A stretch of 64,000 nucleotides of DNA from NCBI RefSeq assembly GCF_000003815.2, contig NC_049986.1:22617976-22681975 (forward strand), in the 5' to 3' direction. The notes under the pieces are model-generated. The model ran no database searches. It saw only the letters and a list, made by a program, of their open reading frames with translations, and had not been told where the DNA came from. The stretch comes from Branchiostoma floridae. Its lineage: Eukaryota > Chordata > Leptocardii > Amphioxiformes > Branchiostomatidae. The translations under genes and the position numbers were made by a program. This document shows, in pieces, positions 14,940 through 52,976 of this stretch. How positions within the stretch are numbered: position 1 is the first letter of the stretch; every line of letters begins with the position of its first letter.

Positions 14940-16266
14940 ATGGCGTTCTGCGACAAATGCCCCAAAAAGTGCGATACGAAATTGGGTCTCCTGCAGCACA
15001 AGTATGACAAACACGGTGTAGGGAAATCTTCGCACACCTCATGGAGATGTGATCGGTGTAGGAAATCCTTCTCGGCTGAGCATATTTTGCTGGGACACAA
15101 GGAATACAGAATACACGGTAGACAAGCATCTTTTCACAATTTCCTGATGAATTCAATCAGTCTGATTACGAATTACCAAAGTGAAAGCCAACATGGCACC
15201 TTGATGAGGTATCATGCGGTACCTTGTTTGGCTTATGTTAAGGATCCCAATATACAAGGGAAATATTTCCAGTTTTAATCCTCTAATAATGCACTGGGTG
15301 CGAGTAGTCTTGTCGGCTTTTACATCTGTGACATGTGTCGTAATAACAACTTTATCGATATCGATATCAAACCAAATGGCAAGCATGGTCTTTGTACCGA
15401 AAAAAAGACTCTCTTTCCTGATCCACATGCAGATTTGGAGGACTTGCTGGACAACTTCAAGCCAGATGACATCAATAGGTACATCTCCGGACACCTGCAG
15501 ATGGGGTGGAGTTACAATTATGGCTGCGGGGGTGTGAGCGATAATCTTGCATACTTCTTCCAAAGAATAAACCCTTTGTTCAAGATTATCAGGATCATCA
15601 AGGTACCGATGAATCATACCGATTGTTATAACATTGTTTCCGCTGATTTAGAGAAGAACTTAATACTTTTCATTTCAACATTTGATTCTATAGATAATAT
15701 GATATCAAAGGTTCGTAGTTTTGCACAAAAGCCAAGAAGGCAATGATAACACTGGTCGAAGCCAATCGTGAAATGGCAAAACGGAAACAGTGACATTTAT
15801 TCAACTTTCACAGGAATTCACGTTGATTTATTGCATTTCCGTCTGGTTATCTATTTTAGGGAGGTTCTCTACAAAAGGGTACAGCAATTAGGCCCAAGTC
15901 CGGCATCGATCTTGTGATGTTCATCTCCGAACTACCATCTGTTGATAGCCCAAACTACAGCAGGCAACTAGAGCACCATCTCGAGCAAGTGAAAGACGCT
16001 CTAATTGCAACGAAGAAAGCGAAGAAAAGGTTTGGTAATGCACTTGTCGATAAGCATGTCTCCGTTCAAATCCTTCCTATGGTCAACGTTACCTGTATCA
16101 GAATAAACAGTAAATAATAAACAGTAAACAATAAATTGCGAATGAGATTATCAATCTAATACATTTCTAGTATGGGCTTTGGAGCGTGTTATATCCGTCA
16201 CGCAGACAATACTTTTAGGTAGCGTTCATGTGAGTAAGTATCTCTCTCTCTGTCTCTGTCTGTGTA

Positions 16267-16298
<32 letters not shown>

Positions 16299-24470: not shown

Positions 24471-24884
24471 TACGTGTTTTTAGGCGTCTTAATCGGGCTT
24501 TTTACTTTATGTAATTTTCTTCATGTCTCGCAGCTAAAAAGTACAAAATACAAAGCCCAATAAAAACGTCAAAAAGACGTCAAACCTCGCACCCCGAACC
24601 TCTGCTGAGGGAGTAAGGTGTTGGCACTCTGCCACACTCAGCACATAAGGCCACATTGACTGACGAACAATTTCTTGGACTAACGTGACGAAGACACGTG
24701 ATAAACTTAGTGTATACATGTACATAGATCGAACTATTATTACTCAGTACGGTACTAAGTCAACACAACAAATGTTATTCATGAGGTCATACAGTCACTC
24801 TTATTGTATCATTTATTTGAACACCATCATATATCAATGTTTAGTGCTTGATGATAGCGTCGATCAATTGCCGTTCCGCAGAAA

Positions 24885-30313
<5,429 letters not shown>

Positions 30314-31680: not shown

Positions 31681-34600
31681 ATGCTACAACACCGGAGAGG
31701 CATGTACAGCAGCAGTGCTCCGAGTTTGGGTGGGTATTCCTGCGCTGGTGGGCGATGCCTTTGTCGCTTTAGATTAGAGGGTCAATCTGATTATTGCTGC
31801 CTTATAGGTCCTCATAAAATGATTGCAATCGTCTTATGTTTATTATCCGTTCCCTGAGTGGTTCCTTGTTCCCTGAAGGCTCAGGCATAGTCCATTTGTG
31901 ACCTTCGTGTATTCTGATTCTAATTTAGTAAGATTTTATTGTATAAGTTATGAAATTTTGTGTTGAAATATTATACGATGGATTTTAATTAACATGCACA
32001 GAGATAACTGACGTACTAGATACATGTTTTGTCTTTTAACAGCGCGTTTTAAATCCAGCTATAATCAGTTCCTTTTGTAACCATCGGGAATTAATATGTA
32101 ACGTATTGTCAGTGTACTCTAACATAGTAAGTACATCCGTCTTTTTGGCGACGCCTGATGGGCGAGCCTAATAGTATAGTGTGCGACCGTTTGCAAAGAA
32201 TTCCAAAAACTGTACAGCAATGTCAGGAATGCCAAAGTCCGCGCGTGCGTAGTTGCATCATGCCGGACTGAACCATTACCTCCACGAGTAAGCTTTCCAG
32301 TCGCAGGGCACATACCGATATAAAGCCCGATATACGTGTGCACAGCAGTGTTTTCCGTATTCGCGCATTGCGATTTTTGACTGATCGTCGTGCAAAATTG
32401 AAAAAGCCTAGGACTTCAGACGTACCAGAATTGTAGTATGTAGTATGGTGGCAATGGAAATGTAAACATTTGAAACAGGGGATAAAAGATTGTTGAAACA
32501 TGTTCCTCGGAAAATGACCCGTGAGTCGTAGAAATCACTTCCGGGTTCGTTCCTGGTTTGTGTTCAGGAGTTTGGATTTTGAAACGTTTGGTGGCCTTCT
32601 TCACCCTTGATATCTTTGTTTCAAAAATGCAAACCGATGTGTGAAACAAGCATTGTTTGAGCTTAAATGATGTATAACATGTGGGGTTGTGAGATAGCGA
32701 TGTCGCTAAGAACGTTAGATTTTGGGTAACGTTTGTATTTGTGTGTTTTTCTAGAATACCACCATAACTCGAGAACGCCTGGATGAATTGTATTGATATT
32801 CGGTATGTGGGTAGGTCTTGTTGGGACCTGGAAACGATTAGATTTTGCGTCCCCCAGCGGCCTGTTCCGGTACTGCAGCGGAACTTCCTGGTTTGATATC
32901 TCGAGTTTTGGACATGCTGCGGCTATGAATTTTAAGTGGTAGACAACTCTTGATGCCATGAGTAAGTGGTACAGGCTTGGGCCCCCTAGCGGCTTATTTT
33001 GGAACTGCAGGACAGGTTTAGTGTCAGACTTTGAAAGGGAATAACTGAAGAAGGGGTTGACAGATTGTTATGATTTTTGGTATGTGGATAGGTTACGTGA
33101 TGCTTCATATAATTGCATATCAATTATGCAGATTGGAAGCTAATTTGCATAATTAATTGGGAAATTGTCTAAACATGCTCAGTTCAATTATAGGACCATT
33201 GCAACATGTGAAATTTGTAACTGAGTAAGAGAATATTGATGGATATATATTATGCAAAATAAAGACAAAATTTGCATAATTAATGAGAAAATGCGGTTAT
33301 TGTGTCATTGTGGTAAGCTAGAGAGGATGTTCAACTGATATAATTTATGTAAATGAGGGTCTGATTTGTAAAATCGATGAGAAGCATTTACATTATTAGT
33401 TCACCCTTCACTCACAAGACTACCCCTTTTGACAGCAATGCGAATGGAATACGACTATTAAAACCCATTAATAACAACAATCCTTAATACTTATAAATAA
33501 TAAAACCGTCGCCATGGCAATAATCTTAATTGCCACACTTTTTTTATTTTCGCGCGCGTCTGCAGACATCAAGGACTTCCTAGACAGCTGCAAACCAGCC
33601 GATGTCCACAGGTACATCTCAGACCATCTGCAGCCGGACGAGTCATACCGCAATGAGTGCAGCAGTGTCGTGGATCATCTGGCGCGCTTCTTCAAAACAG
33701 GCTCGGATTTCACCGTTAACAGGTTTATCAAGGTAATTTGTTTTGGTTATTCGGTGCAAATGAGGTATCAAATGGACTGTCTAGTATATGGCAGAGATCA
33801 TCATGCAATGTGGTGCAGGGTTTAGATATAGTGCAGACTTTAGGTGCAAATTGACAACAAGGCACGTACAAGAAATAGACATGTTCCACAGCTTTAGGTA
33901 TATTGTATTGTATTGTTTTGTAAGTTTAAGCGTTAATTTTGTTGTTATTTTATATTTGTAGTGACGTAATGCAGTTGTTGTATAAGTCGTAATTCCTTGC
34001 AGTCGCTGTGGCCCGTCACGTACATGTATTTGCATGCACCAGTAAGCGTATTTATGGTAAAATTAAGGCCCCATTTTTATAGCTGTATTCATGTGAAATA
34101 TACTTCCAGGGTGGTTCTCTGGGCAAGGGCACAGCGCTTAAGTCCAAGTCTGACGTCGATGTTGTGATGTTTATCTCTGAGCTGCCTGCGATCAGAAGCT
34201 TTAACTACAGCGATAAGCTGCGGATGCAATTGGATGCACTGGAGAGTACACTGCAAAGACCATGGCAAAGGTTAGTTCCATTTTCTTGCCCGGACGTTCA
34301 TTCCCACGATACATTGATAAAATAGGCGCCATCTTTCTTTCACGTGATCACGTACTTCTTGGCATCCAGTGAATAACATAAAATGCAAGCGAGTTTGTAT
34401 ACAGTGTATTCTGTATGTAGATGACATTGTATGCGCAAGCTACAGAGCAAGCGTCTTGGATCATGACTGAATGGCATTGACTTGTTGAAATTTAAACATT
34501 TCTATGTCTTCAGCATTCGCAATGCCGCCATTGGCATTGGCTTCAGGGTTGCAGTGGTGGGTCGTACAAACTATGCCGTTAAACTGAGGGTACAGAGTTT

Positions 34601-35729
34601 GAAGCCAGACCACAAACCACATGATGTCGACTTGTTGTTGACTAGTGACCTTTTGGGACCTACTCCTTCGAATAGTGAGTATCAAATGACTTTTCTTTTG
34701 AAAAAGTATAAGTAAATATAATTTTTGTGTATTGTTTTGTTCTTTCATATATCACAATTCAATTAAAACAATGCGACAGATTAAGTATAATTATATATAA
34801 TAACTATATTCTTAACTATTTTATCCATACCCAAATTGTGCATGTATGTTATGTACATTCTCTGTCAGGTAAAATAAAGGACGTTTACGAAATGATGGCA
34901 ACAATGAACTTCTATGGCTATGCAAGGGAGAATTGTTCCGCAGCGCTGGTGGCTTTTGTGAAGAAGCAGCCCGCAGAAGTGAAGGACCTCATCCGGCTGG
35001 TCAAGATGTGGAAGTGAGTAAATACCATAGCAAAGAATGAGTAAAAATGAAGTCACCCTATGAAGATGACTGTGATTGTTGTACACAAGTCGTACTTAAC
35101 TGGTTTGCCTTGTCTAAGAAAGGTTTGTTACGAGATTGATTTTTTTTCTTTACGCTTGGAACAAGGTCATCTTGTGTGAGAGAACCCAGCCTGACGTCCT
35201 ACCCACTGGAGCTTCTCTGTATCCACACCTGGCCATCCTGTGGGACGGTGGCAGGTGCTTTTAAGGCCGTTCTGGAGAAGCTGAGTGACCACAAGCGCAT
35301 CTGTGCCTACTGGACTGACAACTACCCATTTGATCGAATGCTAACAATGTTAAGGAGACAGTACGTGTGTCTTTCAGATGTTTAAATTCTTTTATTCGAT
35401 CATACCTTTTGCACACATGATTGTTATCCATTTTCTTTTTAACATTGATTCATGGTGCTGGTGCTTGGGATCTTTTTATGATCTTAACTGCTTATCAGAA
35501 CGGTAACATTTAATTATACTAATCCTACTACTTATGAAATTCAACGATAAAGAATCTGTGAATGTCAGGGAGTTTGAATAATTGTGAGTCTTTCTCTATA
35601 TATTCCAGCCCCCTGATCCTGGATCCCGCCAACCCCTACAACAACGTGGCTGACCGCTGTAGGGACTGGGATGCAGTGGCTCGGGCTGCGCGGGAGACAC
35701 TGCAGAAACCGTTCTTTCGCTACGTGTAG
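31681..35729 (+). CDS. OAS-like copy 6: OAS-like synthetase with degenerate or absent zinc-finger N-terminus (about 332 aa)
   Basis: Well-supported exons: 33566-33732, 34110-34270, 34514-34674, 34869-35013, 35166-35360, 35609-35729 (ending TAG). The first of these starts in phase 1 and lacks Met. A tentative first exon, 31681-31729 (ATG CTA CAA CAC..., donor GTGGGT, phase 1), would close the frame at 999 bases. It sits just after the CRE-kB module and its peptide (MLQHRRGMY) looks like a relic of the LQHxxxxH half of a C2H2 finger. The P-loop is GGSLGKGT, followed by SDVDVVMF with both Asp ligands; the third Asp is in HDVDLLLTSD. The exon at 34869 lacks the residues ELQRD present in the other copies (in-frame loss of two residues overall versus copy 4). 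The synthetase is predicted to be active. The first exon has only about 0.3 confidence; the rest is high. Confidence 0.75.
31730..33565. other. Long intron/intergenic stretch before the copy 6 OAS exons
   Basis: No further exon is recognised. About 32740-33080 has repeat-like sequence (for example CCCCCAGCGGCCTGTTCCGGTACTG and CCCCCTAGCGGCTTATTTTGGAACTG, and two related TGTATTGATATTCGGTATGTGG/TGTTATGATTTTTGGTATGTGG stretches). About 33100-33300 is AT-rich with repeated TTTGCATAATTAAT words. Confidence 0.5.
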
Positions 35730-36779
35730 AAAGGCTGCCCTACTATTCACGCCACAAAATAGGGTGCTGTGTAGGCGACATGTACTATTGACAAACTGAA
35801 GCAGACGTTGCTAATGAATTTAACTTCTTGTACTGCTTTTTATTTCTTATATCAGTATTATTCTGCGCCATTAAGCTTTAAGAAAAATTAACGAAATTTT
35901 TATGTGTTTTTTCCTAGAGGTTTAATATCTGATGTGACGTGTTTGATTTCGGTTGTTGTCAGAGTGCAGTGAAGCAATAGTGTATGCTCAGATCATAAGA
36001 TTGATGATTGATGTATTCGCAGGAAAAATTGGACGTAATATATCAGTAACAAAGCATTTAAGTTTTAAGGATTTATGAAAGAAAAGTTGATAGTTATCAT
36101 TTAAAAGTGCTATCGTTAGAAAGTATCAACACTGTTGGATAGTCAGACGTTGCACAGTATTGTTACACATTATTAAACATCTTTGTAAGCGGAAGTATTT
36201 TTCAGTTTTCTTCTGTAAAGAACTACTGATTGCTAGTCTTTTCTTCACCATGCCTTCTGTCATTCGATGTGAATTTATCTTAGATAACCATATATCAATA
36301 AACAGAAATGTGACCAGTTCTGCAATTCCACGCAAACCAATAAAACATTTTATGCTGCCATTGCTCATGACGTTGTCATTCCTACGTTACGATTTCAAAT
36401 TGTGGCGGTGTTGTGAATACAAAGTTACGCAGGCCTTAGAAATGTTAAGGTCACCACCATTTAAGTAACCTTTGTGCATTGATCCATAACTATTTACTAA
36501 AGGACAGATCAAGTTAGAACAATACATCATTGACAAACGAGAGCAAACTACCTTGTTAATATATGTTCACTGCTAAAGAGCTTGAAAGACTACCCAAATT
36601 TTTAGCGACTACATGCGGTGCATGGACTACAAAAGTCACTTACGGACTGAACTTCGGAACATAATGACAAGGTGCTAGGTGTTGCCAAACCTCTTTTATG
36701 CTGTAAATGACAGAAACCCGTGGGTTATTAGTCTACATTATCTTCATTTAAGTATGATCCATCGGTCTGTGAACGGCAG
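35730..36779. other. 3' flank of copy 6
   Basis: No gene is recognised. The words AGAGTGCAGTG recur as in the other copies' 3' flanks. A candidate poly(A) signal AATAAA lies at 36339-36344. Confidence 0.5.
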
Positions 36780-37766
36780 GGGCAAAGTATTTTCTTGGGT
36801 CGCTCTAGTTTATAAGCTTAAGTTCCCTAGCGGAGCGTGATTGAAGTACACCTGTTTACCTGTAACATGAACTTTAACCCCTCACCTTAAACTATTGTTC
36901 CGCGTCCCCGTGCTCAGGTAACGCTAAACCAGGCGCAGGCTGCTCTTAAGATTCTAATTAAGATGTAATCTAGTTGAAGGGCCTCGTGTACGTTCTATGT
37001 TCACCAACGTCCTGTGTGCCTTAAGGATGAAGAACTGTAAAACCTAAGTGTGACGTAGGACCTCCAGATCTCCGTCTTAAGTTACGGGAGGGGTGCAACG
37101 GCACAGGTGAGTTATACAAAAGTGACGCTGTCGTGAATGTTAGTATTGCGCAAGCTAAACCTGAGATTGCCTCAGAGGCGGAGCTATAGTGTAGACTTCA
37201 TGAATACAAGTGAAGAGGGTGATAGAATATTTCACCAATTAAGTTTTATATGTTTAAACTCTATTGGAAAATAAAACTTGAAAGGTTTTCTAAAATAGCT
37301 TGCTGTGTTCTGTTGACACAGGGTCTTACTTCCGGGTGGGAGGGGGGCACGGTCAGTTTTGTTCATTGTGTCTTAGGCAATCACACATAGATACTAATTA
37401 GGAGAGACGAATGGAATCTTATGAAGAGCTATTTTAACGAAGTCTGTTTTATCGAAGCCTGTTGGAGCAGTTAATGTAATGTTTTTGCTTTTCAGTCGCA
37501 AATACAAGCATTTTAGCTTCATATCGAATTACATATCACCTGGTCACTCTTGTGAGGTCACGTATGAAGTTGCCCGAGACTAAATGTGGTTCAAATATTT
37601 CAACGTTCAATTTCGTCTATGGTATAACACTCTAATTACGTTTATATATGGATATCGAGAGATTTGTAGGTAGAAGTCAAGCAGGGATATGACAATCGGC
37701 TCCTATAAGTTATCTACCGTATTACATGTCGACTGCCATTTCATCATATTTTGTTTTTATTCACAG
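36780..37766 (+). promoter_or_regulatory. Duplicated upstream region of TIR-OAS gene 7
   Basis: About 36823-37390 aligns with about 45170-45700 upstream of gene 8 (GCGGAGCGTGA(T/G)TGAAGTACACCTG, CCTGTAACATGAACTTTAACCC, CTTACTTCCGGGTGGGAGGGGGGCACGGT). About 37500-37640 aligns with 46080-46240. The two TIR genes therefore share their upstream region. The transcription start is not located. A splice acceptor at 37765-37766 opens the exon holding the start codon. Confidence 0.55.
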
Positions 37767-37858: not shown

Positions 37859-40800
37859 ATGGCTGCATCACATCAATGTACGTATCCGTTTATAGTTTTA
37901 GGTGTGATTAACAAAACAATAATATGTTGTACTGTAATATCATGTACAGAATCTTTTGTACAGTCCGAGCTGCAGATCTTCAGCTCAAAGATTGTTATCA
38001 TCACGTAAGTTTATAATTTATGACCTTCTCTGTTTCATCAACATTTGCTCCTTTTCCTTTCATTAGGCCAAACTGTCTTCATATGCCATGCCGGAGAAAG
38101 CAAGCCATTTGTGCGACAACTTGTCGATCGCCTTAAAACCGACGGTCTGGAGGAGGACCAGATTTTCTTTGATGAGAGGTCTTTAGACACCGGTGATGAA
38201 TTAGACAGCATCGTCAAAGTCATAGAGAGCCCCTCCCTGAAACTATTTGTATTTGTGGTCAGCAAGTACTGTTTTGATGTCGATAGAACTTGGATCCGTA
38301 CAGAATGGGAAGCGGCGCTCGAGAACAACAAACAAATCTTCCCAATTTGGCTTGATGACAACAATGATGATTTTAAGGCATTTGGCAACCTTGTCAGGAA
38401 GTTTTCAAACAAGCTGAGGAAGATGATTGCACAGAGGGTGAACCCGCAGGAAATTTCTACCACCCTCTCCGGCCTTTCTGAAAAAATCTGCTCACTTGTT
38501 TGTGGTACGTATGTCTACTCTAGTGATACTTCTAAATCGTCACCTAAAGCCTCGAAATTCAAAGTTATGTATGTAACGTCGATTATGTAACGCTAGACTT
38601 CCAGGTAATGCGCAGTGGGTGCTATCTGAAATGTTTGGCCGGTTTTGACATCTATTTAGGTGATTGAATAAATTAAAATTACATATTTTTTATCTATGTA
38701 TGTTAATTAGAAATTCACTGAAATGATTTTGTAAATTTGAAGAAGTATCATTACTATTAGTAATCATGGTTTAAGCCGCGTGTCATTTTGAGAGGCCAAG
38801 CAATGGTAATGGACTATTGCTTATTAGAAACTGGTAAATACTAGTAGTCGATTGTTTATCTGTGGACAATTTTCGATATTTCAAAATAAATTTTCCAACA
38901 ACCAGGTGATCAGCCCTCCCAACAGAGGCCCACGCGCACTGCTGACAATGCTGTGGTCGCCACAAGACAAAACATTATGCCAGGTAAGTTTCTTATCAAT
39001 TGCTTGTATAAAATAACACCAACGATTTTCACCAGGCGTACATAATCCAATAGCTTGATAATACCGAAGGTTTCAAGACAACAAAATCCACTTTTGGGGC
39101 ATTCAAAGTGCGAAGACCCGTGTAAATGCGAGCCCAGGACAGATTGAGAAGCCAATTGATTCAAAGACTTATGTGTTTTGTCTTTCAGAAGTCCTCCCTG
39201 CAAAGCTGACGCTGGAGTTTGTCCAGAAATCAAAGAGCCAGTTGCTGGACAAGGCCGATGCTCTTTTTGACAAAGAGGTTTTTAAGGATGAAGAAAGTTT
39301 TAAGAAAGCTGAGAAACTGTTTGACAGGTACAAGGCCACAATTGAATCTATTATCGGGGGTTGCTTCATCTTCAACCTACGATTCTTCCAGCCATGTAAC
39401 GTGGATGAGTTCTATCACGATCACTTCCGTCTCGGCCCAGAGAGTCTGTCCACAGCCTTAACAAACCTCCTCATCACCGACGAGATGCAAGCTGCTGCCG
39501 GAGGAGAGGAGTTGATGGTCCGGGTGGAGGTCCGGTATGACGACTACATCAGGGTGAGAAGGCAGCTCTGCGTTACAGGTATGTCTTTATTCCACAAGAT
39601 TTAGTTGTAATTGCAGAGTTATGTCAATGGCACTTAAAATTTTAAAGTTCTTTGCCAGTAATATTCGAGCTGTAAAATAGCAATTGATTTTTTTACTCCC
39701 AATATGTTTGTATCGAGCATTTCTCATGCATTAAGATATCAACGGTTTTGTATGTTCTTTCAGGGATTCTGAAAGCAACCTCTGTGGACAACCTGTCAAC
39801 CTTGGTGCACCCTAGTACCGAGAGGAGTCTCATCGGTTCCAAACTGGAAAGTCTGGACCTAGCCATCACGGGCACCCAAGATTCAAGTGTCACGGAATGG
39901 GCGGCTCATCCTTGCACAAAGCATCTGACTAGGTGTGTGAAATGGAAGTCAAAACAGGTGGTTTCTCTTACAAGGGGACTCGAGATTCAGCAGAATATTG
40001 TGCGGAGTCTCCATCACCAAGTTTCACATCTCAATAAAGAAAATGAAAAAGCTCAGCAGGTTGTGATGAGTAACACGGAAGAAATGAATCAATTCAAAGA
40101 TGAGAATACAAATCTGAAAGCTATAATCGAAGCACTGATGACTGCTAAGACAAAAGTGGCCGTTCAAAGACCTGAAGAAAACAATGAAGTCAGAGCGCCG
40201 AACGTACTGGAAACTGCACCTAGCGGAGTAGAAGGCGGAGCTCCGGCGGAACCAAAAACTCCATCAAGCGGAGTTGAAGGGGGAGCACCGGAGGAACCGG
40301 AAACTCCACTAAGCGGGGTGGAAGGCGGAGCACCGGAGGAACCGGAAACTCCATTAAGCGGAGTGGAAGGCGGAGCACCGGAGGAACCGGAAGCTCCACT
40401 AAGCGGAGTGGAAGGCGGAGCAGCGGAGGAACTGGAAACTCCACTAAGCGGAGTGGAAGGCGGAGCACCGGAGGAACCGGAAACAGCACTAGTAGGTAAG
40501 CTGTATCGTGGCTTGTTATTTAACTGTTAAAATTGTTTTTCAAACTTAAAGACGAATAGAATAAACGAAATTAAAATCAATCGAGTTTTTAACCTGTACC
40601 ATTGATGTTGATGTTGATCCGTTGTTAAAAGAAAGACCAATGGCATAAAAATGCCATGAATTACAGCATTTTGATGATGCTTTTTTGTCTTAGCTCATGA
40701 GAGGCTTGAAATGGCCAAACACCAACCTGTGATTCAGGACTTTATTGTGAAGAGTCTCCAGAAGCAAGTCGCTCGTCTCATGAAGAAAGATGAGGAGGCG

Positions 40801-43800
40801 CAAAATGTTTTGATGAGTAAAACAGAAGAAAACCAACAGCTTAAGGAAAACAATAAAAGCCTGCAAGCCTTAATTGAGTCGCTACTGGGTGCCAAGAAAA
40901 AGGCTGCCATTCCTAGTCCTACCAAAGAGGATGCACCAATGAGTACTGAAGATAGAGAATCGGAGGAACCGGACTTTCCACTATTGGGAGCTTACGGCGG
41001 AGCATCAGAGGAATTCGAACCATTCACTCCTCTATGGAGAGCTAATAAAGGTCTCATTCCAGAGGTCAGGATTCCCCCGCGGCCGGGTAAGCTGATACTG
41101 TTTTTCCACGTTCCTTGTTTACATTTAAATGTAGGCATCAGTTTTTACTACATTAAAGTCCATTTAAGTCAAAGCGTTTTCCTAGGTCAGCTGCAATTCT
41201 GTAGAATAATATTTCAGTAGTTACTTTCATTGCTTTAGTTTCTGGATATTCTACTAAGTGTGGTATTTGTTTTGTTTCATGTACAAAATTGTGTTCATAG
41301 GACCAATACCACGGAATAAAGCACCAGGTACTTGGCCGTGTGATGCATGTTCAAAACTTTTGAGATCGAGGCAAGGTGTCGACGATCACAAGAGAGCTGT
41401 ACATGGATATTCTGCTTTAGGTATGTTACACCGGTTTGATGATCAGTTGTAAAGGCTATCTGATTTAAACAGCATCCATTGTGTGTACAACATCATCTTT
41501 ATTTCGCACACAAACATTTTGAAAAAGAACCCGTTTAAAAACACGAATACAAGGTGAAGGTTAAAGATACACCTCGGACGTACGAGCAGATACACAAAGA
41601 TCTGCAGGGCGCAAGGTTAACGAAAAAATGGTGGGTACATCAGCCTTTCAACATTGCAATTGTATGCACAGATGTCATCATAAACTACACATATATTGCA
41701 AAAGTAATCAGGTGTATAATATTATGATATCATCGGCTGGAAAATAGCCCGGACGGCGACTCCCATACAGGGTTGTTCCTTGCACAGTATATTGCGTACG
41801 ATGTGCAGAGGGCACAGTGTCCTAACCTGCGCTTTACTTTACTCAGTGAAATATTTATTACAATGTCTGCGTAACATTCTTCTTGTAAAGCAAATGATTT
41901 ACAAAGCTATCAAGTAAGCAAAAGCACATGTCAACACCCCCACCCCCCCAAAGCAACCCACAACAACAAATGAACCATGACCATGACCTCTGAACCCTAT
42001 TCTGATTTACACATTAGGCTACTCAGAAGGCTGGCGCTCCTTTACCGTTCCGGCTGGATTCAACACATTTCTGGACCACTGCCGTCCCGGAGACGTCCAC
42101 AGCTACATCTCCCAACACCTGCAGACGGACGAGTCGTTCCGAGATGAGTGCAGCGATGTGGTGGATCGTGTGGCAAGCTTCTTCAAGAGAAGCTCTTTGT
42201 TCACGGTTACCAGGTTCATCAAGGTGACTGTTCTGATCATTCAGTGTACATGTTCACTCATTATTGTGTAGCACATTCAAGTTCTCTTACAACGAAGGAA
42301 ATGGGAATAGAGGAAAGGGCATTAAAAACTTGATAAACTAGTAGTTGCTTGCACTTGATGCTAGTTCACCTTATTCCGTGTTATTTGAAAATAGGATATG
42401 TCAAGTCGACGGACGTTGCTTTCAAATTGCAATATTTGTTTTTCAAATATTGCAGTTTGAAACCACCTTCGTCGACTTGATATTCCTAAAGACATTAATA
42501 CCATGATTTTCAATCTGCAGATAAATTCAAAAGTGAAGTAATGTGGCGTTTATTAGCCCTTGCATGGCTAGGCTTGCAGCACATAAGTGACATTTTTGTT
42601 GTTCGCGTTTAGGGTGGCTCCCTGGGCAAGGGCACTGCCATAAAATCCAAGTCTGACATCGACTGTGTGATGTTCATCTCCGAGCTGCCTCCCATCGACA
42701 GTGATGACTACTACCGCCAGTTGCAGCGCCATCTTGAGCGGATGGAAAGAGGCCTAATAAGATCGAAGAACAGGTGAAGTGCTTTTTGACAAGCAGTGTC
42801 GTCACTTATATGATACATGTCTGTCGCCATGTTGTTATGAGATTAGGCCTCACAATATCATTTATGCCTCTCAGTATTGTGTGACCATAAACACAAATGA
42901 AACAGTTATTGTGACGTTAAATTAACATTACACAATGAAATTCCTTTAGCATCGCCTACAACTTTGAAGTAGTGGGCCGTACCAGCTATGCCGTACAACT
43001 GAGGGTGAAGACCCAGAAGAGGGACCACGAGTCACATGACGTGGACCTCCTATTGGCCACAGATCTACTCGGACCTGTTCTCTCTAGTAGTAAGTATGCA
43101 AAAACACATAAGTCTACATACATAAATGGTAATTTAAAATTGTTTCATGACTTGCAAAACTGGTTATTTAGCAATTTTCAATGTTTCCATGTCAAAGTTG
43201 TATTTTTTTACCTTGCTAGTTAAGAAAGAAGAAGTGTACAGAATGATGGGCCGAATGGACGCCCGTTCCAGGGAGAACTGTTCCGCAGCGCTGGTGGAAC
43301 TGCAGCGGGACTTTGTGAAGAAGCAGCCCGCAGAAGTGAAGAACCTCATCAGGCTGGTCAAGATGTGGAAGTGAGTAAGAGTTGTGGGACTAAGAGTATC
43401 ATCTTGTCCAATCGATCGTATCATTTTAATGATTGCCATTGTTGTTATTCATCAGGTACAAGATTCCTGCTAAGATCGTTGGCTTAGTCTACAAGAATAA
43501 CAGCGGATTTGCTGAGGTTAATAATTTTTGTGTACACTTGAAACAAGGTCATCTTGTGTGACCGAAACCAGCCTCACGTCCTACCCACTGGAACTTCTCT
43601 GCATCCACACTTGGTCATCCTATGGGACTGTGTCAGCTGCATTCCAGGCCGTTCTGCAAAAGCTAAGAGACTACAGCAGCATCTGTGCCTACTGGACCGA
43701 CAACTACTCTTTCCATCGAGTGCAAACAATGTTGGGAAAACGGTTTGTGTTTTAATTGTTCTATGACAGTAACATTTTTGACCATATGGAGCTCGAGTGC

Positions 43801-44222
43801 ACACACGTCGTTGTCAGTCAGCTCCTGTTGCCAATCATGTTCTTAGCTGCTTGTCCACCAGGACAGTTACTGGAAATTGTACTGAAATATGAAACTAAAA
43901 AGACTTCTTTACTATCAGAAAAAACTCATGATTATCCCCAGTTAATTGCTAACACTATATAAATAAAACTTTTGTTAGCCCCCCGTTTTTTTTTTAATTT
44001 TAAAGTTTTATTCTACACCTCTATTTTGTACTACGTCTAATAACTGTTGCCAATTGTTAAGGAGTTAGAAATAATCCTAAGTCCATATCTCTATATTGCA
44101 GACCCCTGATCCTTGACCCGGCCAACCCCTACAACAACGTGGCTGACCGCTGTAGGAACTGGGATGCAGTGGCTGAGGCTGCTAAGAAGACCCTGCAGAC
44201 ACCGTTCTTCTCTCGCTACTGA
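37859..44222 (+). CDS. Gene 7: TIR - TRADD-N-like - coiled coil - zinc finger - OAS fusion protein (1047 aa)
   Basis: Exons: 37859-37877, 38067-38504, 38906-38983, 39189-39578, 39764-40495, 40694-41086, 41301-41420, 42018-42223, 42613-42773, 42950-43089, 43220-43370, 43548-43742, 44102-44222; 3144 bases, frame closed, ending TGA. Residues 7-152 are a TIR domain (FICHAGES, FFDERSLDTGDEL, WIRTEWEAAL) with E86 in the position of the NADase glutamate. Residues 179-308 resemble the TRADD N-terminal domain (moderate confidence). Residues 309-683 are charged coiled coil with six 15-residue repeats (458-547). Residues 684-723 carry one C2H2 finger (CDAC...HKRAVH). Residues 724-1047 are a full OAS fold with GGSLGKGT, D807, D809 and D878 plus the C-terminal domain. 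All exon junctions through the OAS join are phase 1. The OAS exons have no Met before the active site, which argues against a separate OAS gene. The predicted role is a cytosolic receptor or enzyme combining TIR signalling and oligonucleotide synthesis (inference). Confidence 0.78.
40210..40479 (+). repeat. Six 45-bp tandem repeats inside gene 7 coding sequence
   Basis: Each unit encodes 15 residues, consensus ETPLSGVEGGAPEEP. The frame is kept and there are few substitutions, so expansion is recent. Gene 8 has only about one and a half units at the matching place. Confidence 0.95.
41301..44222 (+). other. Zinc-finger plus OAS module of gene 7
   Basis: This is the part that a gene predictor might annotate as an independent OAS gene. 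The finger exon (41301-41420) and the first OAS exon (42018-42223) are open in one frame but contain no ATG in that frame. The first Met falls inside the catalytic motif (CVMFI). The intron from the coiled coil to the finger is only 214 bases, with no poly(A) signal or promoter motif noticed. The short finger exon and the joining introns are all phase 1, which permits insertion of the module. Confidence 0.75.
42394..42487. repeat. Foldback (hairpin) element in intron of gene 7
   Basis: GGATATGTCAAGTCGACG... is mirrored by ...CGTCGACTTGATATTCC with a short loop around CAAATATTG/TTTTT/CAAATATTG. It is an inverted repeat with arms of about 42 bases and some mismatches. Confidence 0.75.
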
Positions 44223-45129
44223 GGATTCTACAACTGTGTGTGCAAAGTCAAACTCTAGCTCTGTTTGATGGACGGCGTGCAGTATGATCCCTTTAACTCC
44301 AGATATCTTGGATTAACAGTGTTTTAATCTTTACAAGTGTATCACTTTTCGCGTCTGAAAAGTCTAATGCATAGAGATTGTCTGATCTGATGTTTTCAAA
44401 TGAGTTCATTGTGGTGAAACATGCATGTTAAGATCAAGAACTTTAGACAGAATATAGTACTGATAGGAATACTGACGTTATGTCTTGAAGTCTTTTAAGG
44501 AACACAGGGAATCCTTATAACGTTTGATTCCTTGCCTTGCCTCTTAGTCCAGTATAACTCTGCGCACTTCGGTGTCTGAAAAATCTGAAATATCCAGTTC
44601 TTTTTATAGTAATTTTCTTCACAGAGGTTTCCTGAACAGGCGTTTTCGATTGCAAGTTTGTTACCAGAGTGCAGTGATAATGTGTGATGTTGAGATCAGG
44701 TGATATGGGAGAGTGGCCAGCAGGGAAATTGACGTAAATGTCAGAAAAGAAGGCTTAGAAGCCATTTAAGGAAAATACAATTGTGCATCAAATTTGTGCA
44801 AGAAAGGTTAATACTAATACTACCGATTGAAACACGCAAGCCTATTTTCTTATAAAATTGATAAATCACACAGTTATGTTACCCATTACCAAACATGTTA
44901 GTGCCATACCTCTATGGGCCGTGAGTAAGGGACTTTTTCAGTTGGAGTCTTTCTTGTTTCACAAATTAATGATTAATAGTTGTTTTGGCATGCCCAGCGT
45001 CTAATGTTAATCAATATTCGCCAACTAATAAAACATAATGTTGTCAATGGGTCTGACGGTGCTATTCTTATGATTCTTTTACTCATAGGTAGATATACAA
45101 CTTCTGCTCTCAAATCCAGTTTGTGAATC
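44223..45129. other. 3' flank of gene 7
   Basis: No gene is recognised. About 44715-45135 resembles 5150-5600 (3' flank of copy 1), including a shared AATAAA (45027-45032). Confidence 0.55.
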
Positions 45130-46359
45130 TAAGTCATTCTTGTTTACTTGAAGAGCAAGATCCCTTGCGGAGCGTGAGTGAAGTACACCTGGTTTGCTTA
45201 CCTGTAACATGAACCTTAACCCTTCACCTTAAACCCTTGTTCCGTGTCACCGTGCTCAGGCAACGTTACAGCTAGCGCGGACTTCTTAAGATTCTACTTG
45301 TAATTTCTTAGTTGGAGGCGTAAGTTCACCAACTTTCCGTGTGCCTCAATAATGAAGAAATGTAAACTCTAAGTGTGACATCTGGACTTCAGATCTTCGC
45401 CTATATTATACGGTAGGTGTGTATAACGGTGCATGTGAGTTATACAAAAGTGTACGTTACCGTGAATGCTAGTATGATGCAGGCTTAAACTTGAGATTGC
45501 TCTGAAGGAAGAGCTATAGTGCAGGGACTAGATTTTATACAAGTTTACGCCGTTGATTCCCAGTGAAGAGGGGGGGGGGGGAATGTTTCATTAACTTGAA
45601 GCTTTCATTGTTTTGTTGACTCAAGATCTTACTTCCGGGTGGGAGGGGGGCACGGTTTGACTTTTGTTAGTTGAGTCTTTGGCAATCGCACATATCTACC
45701 AAAAAGATAGACGAAATAAGTTCTAATGTTTGTTTCAACGGAGTCTGTTGTGACATAAACGGTAGTTCCACTTCCTGTCGGAGTACACGTGGGCCACCCC
45801 CTACCCCCTTACTAATGCATTCCATCCCCTCGCTCTCTCCTCACATCCCCTATCACCATCCCAGCTCATTCGTAGCCTCGACTTCTCGCTTACGGGCTGC
45901 ATTACTAACCCACCCGCCAATACTGCTATCACATAAGGTTGTTTTCATCAGAGAGGGCAATAAATGCCAGCCGTGTGCTGACGGTGGTAACTACCATTTC
46001 CGTGTTGTTGTGTACCGTGATAGACAGGAAGTGGGGTTTTCTTCGGAGCTTGCGAAGAAGAGAATTTCGTTGCTTTATAGTTGTAAATACAAGCATTTTT
46101 TTTAGCTCCGTATCGAATTCTACAACTACATAAATCAATTTTGTAACTCGTCTCTCTTTGTGGTTACGTATGAAGCTACCCAAGACTAACGTGGTTCAAG
46201 TGTTTCAACGTTCAATGTATTTATTCTGTGGTATGACCTGATTACGTTTTTACATGGATATTGATATATTTGTACATCACAACCTGCTCCTATTATCACA
46301 TCTACCTTCAACCTGCCAATTGTCATTGCAATAACATCAGATTTTGTTTCTATTTACAG
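45130..46359 (+). promoter_or_regulatory. Duplicated upstream region of TIR-IRF gene 8
   Basis: About 45170-45700 and 46080-46240 match the gene 7 upstream region. Between them lies about 350 bases (about 45710-46070) not seen upstream of gene 7, with a C-rich stretch (45790-45930), probably an insertion here or a deletion there. An open frame across it has no domain I recognise and is not annotated. Confidence 0.5.
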
Positions 46360-46452: not shown

Positions 46453-49400
46453 ATGACTGCATCACATCAAGGTATGTATGTATTTAGTTTATAGTTTTAG
46501 GTGTGATGAACAAAACTACGGAACAGTATCTTTTGTACAGTCAGTTGCAGATCTCCAGCTCTTATGTCTTTTTCTCAGTTTTGATCACCACTTCACCTTC
46601 TTAATGTCATTTATGCTTTTCTCTGTTCAACATTATTAAGAAAGTGTGCTCATCAACCTTTGCTTCTTTCCCCATCATTAGGGAAAACCGTCTTCATTTG
46701 CCATGCCGGAGAAAGCAAGCCTTTTGTGCGGCAACTCGTTGATCTCCTCAAAACCGACGGCCTAGAGGAGAACCAGATCTTCTTCGATGAGAGGTCTTTA
46801 GAGACCGGCGATGAGCTAGACAGTATCGTCAAAGTCATAGAGAGTTCCTCTCTGAAACTGTTTGTATTTGTGGTCAGCAAGTACTGTTTTGATAACGATA
46901 GAACTTGGATCCGTACAGAATGGGAAGCTGCGCTCGAGAACAACAAACAAATCTTCCCCATTTGGTTAGATGACAACAACGATGATTTCAAGGCATTCGG
47001 CAACCTTGTCAGGAAGTTTTCATACAAGCTGAGGAAGCTGATTGCACAGAGGGTGAACCCGCAGGAAATTTCGACCAGCCTTCCCGGCCTTTCTGAAAAG
47101 ATCTGCTCACTTGTTTGTGGTACGTATGAATATGTTACCTTAGTCTTGCTTATGTGTTCTGATTGGTAAGGTCAGTCAAGGTTTTTTTAGATTCAAGAAA
47201 GATTATTTGAAAGGCGAAAAAGTTCTCATTTGGAAAATTAACATGTATTTGCAAACAATTAGGTGCTGAGCTCTCCACACAGAGACAACCATCTAATGCT
47301 GACAATGCTGTGCCGACCACAAGGCAAAACATTATGCCAGGTAAGATTTGAGCTAAATCTTTTCAGTACCTTTTCTTAAAATTTGTTTGCAACAATTTCA
47401 CAATATACATGGTCGTTGATAAATCTACACCTACTTCCTTGAAAATTATATCTTATATAATTCAATGCAACTTTCCTGATTTAACATTCATCAACTATGC
47501 TGATTTGCTGGTACCTTGAATATGTATGACGTCATTTGGTGACGTCAATTTGGCCTCATTTTGGTTAACATTGCGAACAGAAGTCTAAACAGGCGTTAAT
47601 ATTCTGTTATACTATTATACTCTCAAGTTTTCTTTGCATATCTTAAAGGTTTCTGGTAAAATTTTTTTCCAACTGTTTCACCCAAGAACCTCACTTAAAT
47701 GACGTCATAATTATTTAAAACTACCTCATAATGATGTCGAATGACGCGTTTTCATTACTATAATAGGTAAATTATATATTTCATTTTGTTTCAGATGTCC
47801 TCCCTGCCAAGTTGAAGCTGGAGTTCGTCCAGAAATCATACAACCAGCTTGTTGACAAGGCTGATGCCCTGTTTGACAATGAGATTTTTAAGGACGAGGA
47901 CCGTTTTCAGAAAGCAGAGAAACTGTTTGACAGATACAAGGCCACAATTGAATCCATTATCAAGGGTTGTCTCATCTTCAACCTACGATTCTTCCAGCCA
48001 TGTAACGTAGATGAGTTCTATCATGATCACTTCCGCCTGGGCCCAGACAGCCTGTCAGCAGCCCTATCAAACCTCCTCATCACCGACCAGATGCGAGCTG
48101 CGGCCGGAGGGGAGGAGCTAATGGTCAGGGTGGATGTTCGGTATGATGACTACATCAGGGTGAGAAGGCAGCTCTGCATGGCAGGTATGTGTAGCCAATT
48201 AATTTGCACCATCTTAGTCTCGACTTTGTCTAACTTTTGTTTCTCGTTGGACTGTCTAAATATTGTAGTCGACTCCTATACATAGCAATCAATAGATAGG
48301 GTATAAAACCTGATTTCAAAAAGATCTCCTTTATGTCACTGCCGAAAGATAGTGGATGTTATTTGAAACGTCTGGCCGTTTCCAAAAATTACATCCAGTT
48401 GCTTGTGTAATTGTTATTTGACGTAGCATTTTTGTTAGTACTTCCATGTCTATTTGTAGCGGGTGTTTTTCACACAGCACAATATCGAACATTTCAACCT
48501 CTCATTTCATGTTCTATCAGGAATTCTAAAATCAAGCTCAGTGGACAACCTGTCAACCTTAGTGCGCCCTCGTACTGACAGGAACCTGAGCGAATCTAAC
48601 CTGGAGTCAATGGACCTGGCCAACACCAGTGCTCATGATTCAAGCGTCACAGAATGGGCGGCCAATCCTTACACACGGCGTCTGACTAGGTGTGTGAAGA
48701 GGAAGTCACAGGAGGTAGCTGTTCTCAAAAGGGAACGTGAGATTCAGGGCAATATTGTGTGGAGTCTCCACGGGGAAATTACTTATCTCAATAAGAGAGA
48801 TGAAGCCGCTCAGAGGGTTTTGATGACTAAAACGGAAGAAATCAACCAGTTTCAAGAAGAGAATAAAAACCTGAAAGCTATAATCGAGGCACTGGTGGCT
48901 GCGAAGACAAAAGTGGCCGTTCACAGTTCTGAAGAAGACAATGAAGTCAGTGCGCCGGATGTACCAGAAACACCACTAAGCGGAGTGGAAGTCGGAGCAG
49001 CGGAGGAACCGGAAACTCCACTAAGTGGATTGAAAAGTCCCCATGAGGAAGTCACTCGTCTCATGAAGAAAGACGAGGAGGCGCAGAAGGTTTTAATGAA
49101 TAAAACAGACGAGATCCAACAGCTTAAGGAAAACAATAAAAGCCTGGAAGCCAGAATTGAGGCGCTAATGGCTGCCAAGACAAAGGTGGGCATTCCCAGT
49201 ACTGACGATGACGATGCACCGAGGGGTACTGAAGATAGAGCATTGGAGGAACGCGATAGAGCATTGGAGGAACGTGATAGAGCATTGGGGGGACGTAATA
49301 GAGCATTGGGGGAACGTGATAGAGCATTGGAGGAACGTGATAGAACGTCGAGGGAACGTGATAGAGCATCGAGGGAACTGGGTAGAACATTGGATGAACA

Positions 49401-52400
49401 TCTTAGAGCATTGGGGGAACTGGACACCCTACAAAGGGGAGCTGAAGGTGTCTCTCCAGAGCTCAGGAGTAACCCGAGTAAGATGATACTGTTTATACTT
49501 TCACGTTTTAAAAAAATGTTTGCATTCAATGGTAGGTACAAGTTGTATAGAATGCATCAGAAGTTATCATTATTTTACCTTTTGGATATATTACATCAAT
49601 GCTGCATTTGCTTCGTTTGATAAATAAAATTGTGCTAATCTTTTTAATGAAATTGATGAAATGTCAGCATCTATACGTCTATGTTTTTTTACTAACTTCC
49701 TATTTTATCGTTTTCTTTCCTTACACAGCGAACTCACCGGTCGCAGTTCCGGACAACACTCCTGACCTGCTCCGGCCCTGGCTGTACGGCATGATCGACC
49801 GCGGCGAGGTCCCGGGCGTGGAGTGGCTCGACGCCGACAAAAAGAAGTTCAAGATCCCCTGGGAGCACACCGGCAAGCGCGAGTACGACCTAGATAGCTT
49901 CAAGCTGTTTAAGGTAGGTAATTGCGTTATTGGCCCAGACTTTGAAGCACAGCCCCCCTAAACTTCGCATTTCCCAAAATACTTTTCCGTGTATAGTGGG
50001 TCTTATTCCTGTTAATCTTATCATCAATCAAAGGGCATCATAGGAAAGGTCAGCTGTTAAAGTGACTTGCCCTCCCCAAGGGGTTATGACTAACTTTTGT
50101 TCACCGTTTTGCAATATCCTAGTAAATATGTTCACTATGGAAAAGGGTTCAGCTTATACATTCTATTGCACAACATTAATTCGAAGGCGATGTAAAAGTA
50201 GGAAGCCTGTTCGTTTGTACACAAGGATTTGTCACCCAATAGCAATGTTTTGACCTTTCTGGCTACTTTTGTCGGTAGGAATGGAACCGAAATGTGGACA
50301 ATGTTCCAACGTTCATGCCCGTATGAAAGAAGCCAAGCACATTGACAGGTTTCGCCTCATAACGGCTATACTTGTTTTGCTGTAGGAATGGGCTGTACAT
50401 ACGTATATATATACCGACAAATTTCGTTCGGCGATCTACGACACTATCCTGTTAGAATGCTGCCGTTGAGGTAGCAATCTTTAAGTCTAATGTTTTTGGC
50501 GATGGCAATAAGTTTCACCTAATGTTGGCAACCTCTATGCCTTTTTTTTCTAGGAATGGTCCATCCATACCGGCAAATTTCGCCCAGAGATCGACGAGCC
50601 CGAGCCGGCCGTGTGGAAGACCAGGCTGCGGGTCGCCCTGAGCAATCATCCGAAAATCCACGAGGTAAAGAACGAGAGCCAGCCAAAAGACCCCATCAAC
50701 CCGTACAAGGTCTATGTGTTCTCCGACAAACCACGTAAGCTTTACATATAATGATCTCTCTCTGTCTCCTTTCTCTCTCTCTCTCTCTCTCTTTCCGCCC
50801 ACTCTCTCATACGTATATTTTTGTAGTTTAATCAGGATTTTATTCTTCAGTTGTATTTTACGGTGTTCCCCTAAAACGTGTGTTTAAGGTACTTACTATG
50901 GTTATGCACATCAATACTTAAAATACAATTATTATAATTCTTAGTTCGCATTCATTTCTCCATACGACCTAAATCATATAACACCAATGGTAGAAATTTA
51001 GCACTGTATTCAGAGGGTCAATACAGTTTCATGTCAAAGTCAAAAGCGGGTTGTTCGGTAATGTTCCGTCCGTTTGTAGCACCCTTACCTAGTAACCAAT
51101 AAGTGTTTCTTTTGCGGTTGGTAGAGCTGTCGTGTTTTCCGTTACAATAGCAATAAAACGTTTTGAAACATTGAATAGAATTTTTCATCAAGCAGTGACT
51201 ACGGTTTTGAAACCATATTTTACAGAGGACTCCCTCCAGAAGATCCTGCAGGACCTGCTGAGCCAGCCGGGCCGCGGGGACGGAGACCAGACCATGCAGG
51301 AGCTGCTGCAGGGCATGCAGGAGCTGCTGCAGGGCATGCAGGCCGCGCCCGGGCTGTGTCCGTCGGGCGAGTTCACCATACAGGAGGTCGCCTTGCCCAT
51401 GGACGTCACCACTGCCGCGGATAACCCTGCCGTCATCACGGAGCCGCTCTACACTAACGCGCCCATTAAGGTGAGATCATAACCTTTCCTCTAGACGGGA
51501 CTGACAAGATTTTTTTTACTTGTCGACAGCATAGCGTTAGCTGTTGTAGATGGCATTTTATGATACAAAGCAATGATCATTTAGTTTTCTTACATGTCAT
51601 ATTATTATTTTTTCATGACAAAATATTGTGACATGTAAGAAAAGTAAAGGCAATATACGTGACATTTCATCAGAACATTTTCAGGTAATGTCATCATCGC
51701 GCCATGCCATGGAGGTGCCAACGTTTCTGACAGCTCCACAAGGCCTGAGCCGATGGCATGTGTCTGCGACTCCTCTAACATACTCGACAAGAGATACCAC
51801 ACGCTGAGAAGGCTTCAGAAAGACCTCGAGCTCCTGGCACATACTGTACATTTTATTTAGTATTGATTCATTTCACTTCTGGCAGTACGAAACGAGACGA
51901 TGTCAGACTGTGACAAAAAGAGCTGAGCCGATGAAGTGATTCCTTAAAATCTTCTGGTCCTTCTGGGTGGAATACTAAAAAGATATACATACGTATGTAC
52001 ACTGTATTCAGTTTTGTTTATGTAAACCTTTTCCACAGATGGAGACCCAGCCGCTTGCTAACGTGGACATGACCCAACTATGGGTAGGGGCGGAGGCAGA
52101 CACAAGTGACGAGGACGTTATGGACCGACCTGTCGCTACTGTCGCCCCAGAACTCAGGATCTACCCGGGTGAGTGCATATATATGTAAACAAGTCCAATT
52201 CAGGCAAGTTATCTATTTATCACAATAATGTACCATAAAAAGAACAATCAAACAAATCAATTTTCATCTATGGTTAATGATGTTTTTGTTTTATGTTGAT
52301 AGCTCATGAGTTGGATATCGAGGTCGTTTACTACAAAGCCGGGAAGGTCCTCCAGCATCACGTGACCAACAGGAAAGGCTGTCGTCTGTGGTTCGGCGAC

Positions 52401-52976
52401 CGGAACCAGCCCAACCTGTCCCCTTACCTGTACGGGCCTGCAAACGCGGAACAGATCCTGTTGCCGCCGCGCCAGCCCTCAGGCAGGCAAAAGGACGACG
52501 CGGTCGTGCAAGGTCTGCTGGACAACATGGAGCGAGGGCTCGTCCTTACCACGGAAAATGGCAATATCTCCGCCACCCGCCTCTGCAAGACCAAAGTCTT
52601 CTGGAAGAGCAACGACAACCGCAACAAGCAGGCAGAACGCTTGGAGAGGGAACAGGTGGTGCCGGTGTTTGACTATCAGAACTACCTGCGGGAGCTGAGC
52701 GCCTACGGCAACAGCGGAGGTCCCAGACCCAAGTGTGAGGTCATCTTCAGCTTCGGGAAGAGCTGGAGCGACGAAAGCCCGCTGGAGAACACTCCCATCT
52801 ACGTCATTGTGCGCAGCCGCACTGCGCAACACCTGATGATGGCTGTCGACAAGGGCGAGGCCGACCACGATGCGCAGAACACACTGCGCAGCATCGAAGA
52901 CATGATATCCCACGAAAACGAGTTTGGCAAACTGGCAGTGGACGTGAAAGAATACGTCAAAGCCAAGGACTTTTAG
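46453..52976 (+). CDS. Gene 8: TIR - TRADD-N-like - coiled coil - IRF fusion protein (1098 aa)
   Basis: Exons: 46453-46471, 46682-47119, 47263-47340, 47795-48184, 48521-49477, 49729-49913, 50554-50734, 51226-51470, 52039-52168, 52303-52976; 3297 bases, frame closed, ending TAG. Residues 7-152 are a TIR domain with E86, and 179-308 a TRADD-N-like region. Residues 309-627 are coiled coil ending in nine heptads (ALEERDR type, 49240-49428). Residues 628-750 are an IRF DNA-binding domain with five tryptophans (RPWLYG, VEWLD, IPWEH, EWSIH, AVWKT) and the recognition-helix motif WKTRLRVALSNHP. A Gln/Leu-rich linker follows. Residues 876-1098 are the IRF-association domain (LDIEVVYYKAGKVL, RLCKTKVFW, FDYQNYLRELSAYG). 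The 49477/49729 junction is phase 1 on both sides, and the first IRF exon has no Met before the first DNA-contact Trp, so a separate IRF start is not evident. An in-frame ATG at 46408 could add 15 residues. The predicted role is coupling TIR input directly to IRF-type transcription (inference). AATAAA at 53859-53864 is a candidate poly(A) signal. Confidence 0.78.
49240..49428 (+). repeat. Nine 21-bp heptad repeats inside gene 8 coding sequence
   Basis: Units encode ALEERDR and variants (ALGERDR, TSRERDR, TLDEHLR). The first five are nearly identical at DNA level. They would extend a charged helix or coiled coil. Confidence 0.93.
49729..52976 (+). other. IRF: Interferon regulatory factor module of gene 8
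   Basis: This part alone would be called an IRF gene: DNA-binding domain in exons 49729-49913 and 50554-50734, linker exons 51226-51470 and 52039-52168 (with MQELLQG repeats), and the IRF-association domain in 52303-52976. IRFs bind GAAA-type interferon response elements and dimerise through the association domain after phosphorylation. Which vertebrate IRF it is closest to cannot be judged by eye. If the fusion model is wrong, a short unseen 5' exon between 49478 and 49728 or further upstream must supply the start codon. Confidence 0.9.
50757..50792. repeat. TC-rich simple repeat in IRF intron
   Basis: CTCTCTCTGTCTCCTTTCTC(TC)n tract. Confidence 0.85.

Follow-up and report, generated by a model that had tools for sequence, protein, structure and literature searches.

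The stretch of DNA analysed here (the window) comprises 64,000 nucleotides of the genome of the amphioxus Branchiostoma floridae (C8:22617976-22681975) and is free of N runs from position 2475 to position 60947. On its forward strand, between positions 37859 and 44222, lie 13 predicted exons that encode, in this order, a TIR domain, a TRADD-N-like domain, a coiled coil, a C2H2 finger and an OAS nucleotidyltransferase. When joined, these exons form a single open frame of 3144 nucleotides, that is, 1047 amino acids and a stop codon, with AG/GT at every splice border and matching phases at all joins. The number of exons, the length of the frame, its span and the three junctions named in the first-pass annotation, a reading of the bare sequence, were all reproduced, so that the presence of one TIR–OAS open frame in this DNA is confirmed. 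A chance origin of its parts is excluded because homologous TIR, TRADD-N and OAS copies stand in the same window.

The first exon of this TIR–OAS model (37859-37877), whose front is referred to below as TIR1, contains the start codon and encodes MAASHQ, with A at -3 and G at +4; its counterpart in TIR2, a sister gene 2.2 kb downstream of the model, is the exon at 46453-46471. Exon 2 (38067-38504) encodes the anticipated TIR domain, which scores above the cut-off of the Pfam model TIR_2 (E = 1.3e-11, 45.4 bits compared with a cut-off of 28) and contains W82 and E86 in the W-x3-E spacing; we take the Glu that follows the Trp to be the catalytic residue of NAD+-cleaving TIR domains. Searches of the 513-Mb assembly (431 contigs), to which all genome-wide counts refer, yielded 51 matches to this TIR family, and the W and E of the motif are invariant in all 20 aligned sequences (2 from the window) drawn from these 51 places. 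The profile of the 20 sequences matches bacterial TIR domains in the PDB, the best at 1.4e-15 and AbTIR, deposited as an NAD+ hydrolase, at 1.8e-14, compared with only 9e-4 for the window TIR alone. Exon 3 (38906-38983) is a short linker, with a like exon in TIR2 and, by eye, in locus L012.

The assignment of exon 4 (39189-39578) to a TRADD-N-like domain is a putative one at the level of the family: 4 of 22 aligned relatives, picked from 44 genome places, match the Pfam model TRADD-like_N (best E = 6.1e-5), but the exon of the window itself matches no TRADD model in Pfam. In a PDB profile search with the same 22 sequences, no TRADD structure was found among the matches, and for the TIR and TRADD-N exons, the AlphaFold models built from two-sequence alignments had a mean predicted local distance difference test score of 43.4 and 43.5, respectively, too poor to inform. 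The TIR exon is 93% identical and the TRADD-N exon 85% identical to the TIR2 copies ∼8.6 kb away, and the pairwise ratio of nonsynonymous to synonymous substitution rates (dN/dS) between TIR1 and TIR2 is 0.09 for TIR, 0.17 for TRADD-N and 0.46 for the part in exon 5; judging from these sequence comparisons, the TIR and TRADD-N domains are under purifying selection.

Exon 5 (39764-40495) consists of a linker, a coiled coil and 15-residue repeats, which are encoded by a 45-base tandem array of 6.3 copies (40209-40491). Both elements of the description 'coiled coil with 15-residue repeats' are present, but the repeats, by eye, form an acidic linker that separates two coil stretches rather than the coil itself. 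The heptad periodicity of the exon 5 coil is clear (3 of 5000 shuffles as high), that of the second coil, in exon 6 (40694-41086), is marginal (255 of 5000), and an OAS stretch used as control gave 1635 of 5000. Genome-wide, 16 matches to the linker-coil stretch were obtained, 4 of them in the window. Exon 6 ends with a phase-1 GTAAG donor that has its counterpart in TIR2 at 49477.

Exon 7 (41301-41420) follows a weak acceptor and encodes a single finger with the spacing C-X2-C-X12-H-X4-H (C697, C700, H713 and H718). The spacing fits a C2H2 finger as proposed, but the best Pfam finger model matches only at E = 0.08; there is also a weak match to the finger exon of another OAS copy in the window, copy C (E = 0.018-0.024). 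The OAS part occupies exons 8-13 (42018-42223, 42613-42773, 42950-43089, 43220-43370, 43548-43742 and 44102-44222) and is denoted OAS copy G. Its C-terminal domain is recognized by Pfam OAS1_C (1.1e-30), the core reaches 0.0014 and 19.4 bits with NTP_transf_2, just below the cut-off of 21, and the PDB relatives are OAS2 (8.3e-50), OAS1 (2.2e-33), OASL and OAS3. Both the C-terminal domain and the core with D807, D809 and D878, assigned by alignment to OAS1, are as first described, and the GGS motif is present; the three aspartates are presumed by us to be catalytic, and the positions that we take to be dsRNA (double-stranded RNA) contacts (K60, R195 and K199) are K, R and K in copy G. For exon 12, an acceptor at 43456 was rejected as it disrupts the frame, which is restored by the acceptor at 43548, with a counterpart in all seven OAS copies.

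The sister gene, TIR2 (46453-52976, forward strand), encodes a TIR domain (TIR_2, 3.5e-12), a TRADD-N-like domain, a coil and the IRF DNA-binding (Pfam IRF, 2.4e-29) and IRF-associated (IRF-3, 2.7e-41) domains. Its exons are 46453-46471, 46682-47119, 47263-47340, 47795-48184, 48521-49477, 49729-49913, 50554-50734, 51226-51470, 52039-52168 and 52303-52976, the end of the last, with the stop codon at 52974-52976, being taken from the open reading frame; an intron of 251 bases, whose acceptor is good, separates the coil from IRF, and the frame is kept across it. The similarity between TIR1 and TIR2 comes in blocks that extend from about 36820/45157, upstream of exon 1, to 41293/49634, inside the intron that follows exon 6. 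The final block (41214-41293), which aligns at 72% across 81 columns (E = 6e-4), ends just before the finger exon. Because the exon 6 donor and a part of the intron behind it are common to TIR1 and TIR2, splicing onward at this point seems to be older than the duplication. A comparison of the flanks 35717-36820 and 44222-45157 detected no homology, so there is no sign that an OAS-TIR unit was duplicated. TIR2 is possibly the more surprising of the two genes: the closest IRF paralog, on C6, carries an ATG where the IRF exon of the window lacks one. The nearest in-frame Met lies 8-27 residues before the IRF domain in all seven other IRF exons compared (an eighth, partial IRF on C3 was left out) and 38 residues before it, beyond the acceptor, in that of the window.

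The coil core that TIR1 and TIR2 have in common belongs to a genomic series with other partners, and therefore, the TIR–OAS fusion is likely to be real. At the loci inspected, the core continues into IRF, Death, FN3-like or NHL parts, and TIR, CARD, Death or GT4 stand upstream of it or close before it; the domains near the core or in frame with it include GT4-conflict (1.5e-33), Death (1e-15), NHL (6.4e-30) and CARD (2e-15), GT4 and Death having been assigned to the core by adjacency. A shared core with differing flanks, GT4-conflict and Death among them, matches the constant and variable arrangement of Kaur et al. At C7:24493988, the coil is followed, after ∼0.85 kb, by a Death domain (E = 1.2e-5) with a phase-1 donor and acceptor; since the Death frame has no Met between the preceding stop and residue 71 of the exon, in the middle of the domain, this exon must be spliced from upstream, and we infer that it is spliced to the coil. 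On C18, an FN3-like stretch, below cut-off, comes after the core. On C16, at L079, NHL (Pfam, 6.4e-30) and the coil are in one open frame, and by eye the same holds for L081 and L083, so that no doubt about splicing attaches to this joining. In all seven coil tails examined (TIR1, TIR2, C7, two on C18, L077 and L082), the GT[AG]A candidate donors are without exception in phase 1, and the finger, IRF, Death and FN3-like partner exons all start in phase 1 (the last two by eye).

Two relatives of the front are of note in their own right. L041 (C18:7154638-7155024) is a CARD-TRADD-N-coil paralog with an FN3-like part after it and one in-frame TAA in the TRADD-N exon, for which it was left out of the TRADD-N-like alignment. 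At L011/L069 (C7:24521700-24529123), a TIR that is 78% identical to that of the TIR–OAS model precedes a PARP14-like KH/macro frame (Macro, 1.8e-26), with which it may form one gene.

Copy G is one of seven OAS copies, A-G, that form a tandem array in the window, copy A being partly lost in an assembly gap (a run of N). Scans of frames and starts identified forward-strand finger exons with an ATG of their own at 1048-1331 (ATG 1060), 7625-7901 (7642) and 24882-25153 (24885), upstream of copies A, B and E, respectively; a further one, at 14940-15117, upstream of copy C, has an assumed donor that scores badly. From their order in the window, we infer that these exons belong to copies A, B, C and E. 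Given that a finger before OAS is common in the array, the finger of copy G probably came together with its OAS. Most of the intron between this finger and the first OAS exon is filled by an interspersed repeat of ∼360 bases (41475-41836) that occurs at 39 other genome places with 67-94% identity; the genome DNA search that detected the repeat revealed no further copy of the finger exon. Copy F has a Met within the first OAS exon. The start of this copy (33514-33732) contains a hydrophobic leader, MAIILIATLFLFSRASA, that resembles a signal peptide. In copy C (15429-18483), the first catalytic Asp is replaced by Gly and the third by Glu, and to judge by these residues the copy is probably inactive. 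Downstream of IRF, at 62428-62667, there is a Mab-21/cGAS-like stretch (Pfam Mab-21, E = 0.012, below cut-off), which may represent another type of nucleotidyltransferase in the neighborhood.

That TIR and OAS belong to one gene, with or without additional short transcripts, is in our assessment rather likely, and the single chain claimed by the first-pass annotation is, as a prediction, the most likely reading in view of the genomic series, the phase-1 coil tails and the retained exon 6 donor. A number of observations weigh against it. The finger acceptor at 41301 has a score of 0.26, a value reached by 38% of all AG sites in the window; the score of the exon 6 donor is low, with 18 donors in the training set; and AATAAA is present at 41315 and, for TIR2, at 49623, so that transcripts could end after the coil. 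From 41301, the frame of copy G has no Met until the residue after the region of the second catalytic Asp, and the statement that the finger and the first OAS exon lack an in-frame Met is valid if the finger starts at this acceptor, but the finger frame is open further upstream, through an ATG at 41279, so that OAS could have a start of its own. Moreover, copy D has no Met in the frame of its first exon either, so that a missing Met alone is no proof of fusion. A stronger argument from the start codon of IRF was dropped for a similar reason, namely, that the IRF frame of the window also has in-frame ATGs upstream of its acceptor.

There are two main alternatives to a gene with a single fused product. 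Under one, two neighboring genes would be involved: TIR-TRADD-N-coil would end after exon 6, by read-through to the stop at 41218-41220 or with a last exon elsewhere, and a zinc-finger OAS gene would start at ATG 41279, with a leader to 41300 on the forward strand. The start scan found this ATG to be in frame with the finger and the sole alternative first exon that reads into OAS, and the weak acceptor at 41301, the ATG-bearing finger exons before copies A, B, C and E and the polyA-like signals in the region all point the same way. However, ATG 41279 has a poor context, with T at -3 and +4, and is probably not the ancestral OAS start because the sequence around it (41214-41293) resembles the TIR2 intron; a promoter would have to fit into exon 6 or the next 192 bases; TIR2 has a donor that corresponds to that of exon 6; and the core, to judge by the IRF, Death, FN3-like and NHL cases, usually has a further part joined to it. 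We consider two genes improbable. The other alternative is a single gene with several products, in which alternative splicing or intronic polyadenylation after the coil would yield a TIR-coil adaptor along with the TIR-OAS chain. The weakness of the finger acceptor, the two AATAAA hexamers and the 134 bases, stop included, for which the frame stays open past exon 6 are in line with such an arrangement, although AATAAA hexamers are frequent by chance. As an explanation, this is a tentative one that overlaps with the favored explanation, and fused and short transcripts may well occur side by side.

Much less probable, and in our view very unlikely, is a decayed or never translated chimera that arose by unequal crossing-over in the tandem array. 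The array is repetitive, the nearest relative of copy G varies by exon, as though the copies swap sequence, and copy C has lost catalytic residues; yet, the frame runs through 1047 codons without a stop, the dN/dS values of TIR and TRADD-N are 0.09-0.17, the three aspartates are intact, and of the few codons that set G apart from all of B, D, E and F, three carry synonymous changes and one a nonsynonymous change. Against the six other copies, the dN/dS of copy G is 0.30-0.46, which also points to purifying selection, as a pairwise estimate that does not isolate the branch of G itself. The most improbable of all is a unit that would operate in cis in the manner of CBASS (cyclic oligonucleotide-based antiphage signaling system), with the nucleotide made by OAS activating the TIR of the same chain. 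A TIR and an enzyme of the CD-NTase fold are indeed found in a single frame, and the PDB search with the OAS part yields, for residues 39-93 of the query, a bacterial chain named NucC or CdnC (2.4e-9). However, bacterial TIR effectors that are paired with nucleotidyltransferases carry a nucleotide receptor domain (SAVED or STING), and a Pfam search of the TIR–OAS chain, with E up to 1, gave neither of these nor any other domain of that kind, so that the analogy with bacterial defence that had been drawn for this chain is weak. Furthermore, in CBASS operons with TIR effectors, the TIR and the CD-NTase-fold synthase are encoded in one locus as separate proteins, the effector with its nucleotide-binding domain, whereas TIR–OAS is one predicted chain.

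With regard to function, we slightly favor one fused gene that acts in nucleic-acid sensing. TIR1 and TIR2 would be sister genes that arose when the TIR-TRADD-N-coil front was duplicated and became joined, via phase-1 introns, in one copy to an already resident OAS gene with a zinc finger and in the other to an IRF gene. The OAS part with the finger would bind viral dsRNA, the coil and the TRADD-N domain would gather chains, and the clustered TIR domains would have one of two outputs, NAD+ cleavage or the recruitment of further TIR proteins, above all of the TIR–IRF neighbor, whose TIR and TRADD-N domains are almost the same; in addition, 2'-5' oligomers may be produced by the OAS part and act in trans. 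If there is one gene, an RNA sensor with TIR as the output appears to be a somewhat better than even proposition, and if both are granted, NAD+ cleavage as that output falls somewhat short of even. More doubtful is a two-gene circuit created by exon shuffling, in which the TIR–OAS sensor would bind or switch on the TIR–IRF factor through the shared TIR, TRADD-N and coil; if true, it would lead from an RNA sensor directly to a transcription factor, bypassing receptors, adaptors and kinases. According to one study (PMC6307210), the OAS of early animals worked without dsRNA, which speaks against a simple RNA switch. The proposal of Kaur et al. that TRADD-N keeps its neighbors inactive until a signal rearranges them (PMC8195603) would fit the TIR–OAS chain.

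Among known proteins, the animal OAS1, OAS2, OAS3 and OASL share with copy G the full core, the three aspartates, the OAS1_C domain and the GGS motif. Unlike these, TIR–OAS has an N-terminal finger, coil, TRADD-N-like domain and TIR, and OASL has C-terminal ubiquitin-like domains. The TIR-STING proteins of the oyster and bacteria (PMC10732462) resemble TIR–OAS in the fusion of TIR to a nucleotide-signaling part, but in their case this partner is a receptor, whereas in TIR–OAS it is a synthase. The animal TRADD-N proteins described by Kaur et al. in 2021 (PMC8195603) offer a closer parallel than the bacterial TIR effectors; their paper gives 46-71 TRADD-N copies for cephalochordates and names oligoadenylate synthase, GT4 and Death-like as partners. 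Like TIR–OAS, the proteins of the DEDD2 clade have a constant region on one side of TRADD-N and a variable one on the other. The OAS–TRADD-N fusion mentioned there, the species of which is not given in the text, could be the TIR–OAS gene itself. In sections 10-12 of that paper, TIR is not named as an animal TRADD-N partner, and 'irf' does not occur in the main text. For amphioxus, 28 TIR domain combinations, 20 of them amphioxus-specific, were described in 2008 (PMC2575513); the text of that article contains neither 'oas' nor 'oligoadenylate' and contains 'irf' once, in a legend on human signaling, the list of partners being in a separate file. Likewise, no TIR-OAS or TIR-IRF fusion is named in the titles and abstract openings of the literature searched (that is, outside figures and supplements). 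Thus, OAS as a TRADD-N partner and amphioxus-specific TIR combinations are already known, the TIR-TRADD-N-OAS order and its TIR-TRADD-N-IRF sister are not named in the passages of Kaur et al. and the amphioxus TIR study that are cited here, and the unusual element is the TIR–IRF neighbor.

The predicted TIR–OAS gene would bear on the role of OAS outside vertebrates, where a receptor for the 2'-5' oligomers is uncertain. When the genome was searched for the nuclease domain of RNase L/IRE1, three places came up; by eye, the best is an IRE1-like frame with a membrane segment. The second match by eye, L092/L094 (C5:17895278-17903400), is a kinase and nuclease frame with an altered DFG-like motif; no ankyrin repeat was noticed by eye in ∼5 kb upstream of it, a region in which ankyrins were not profile-searched. 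If transcribed as modeled, TIR–OAS would be a case of an animal coupling an RNA-sensing nucleotidyltransferase to TIR, with a neighbor that couples the same front to IRF. The predicted pair suggests a direct path from virus sensing to the response and would make a testable case of the rewiring of an immune pathway by exon shuffling.

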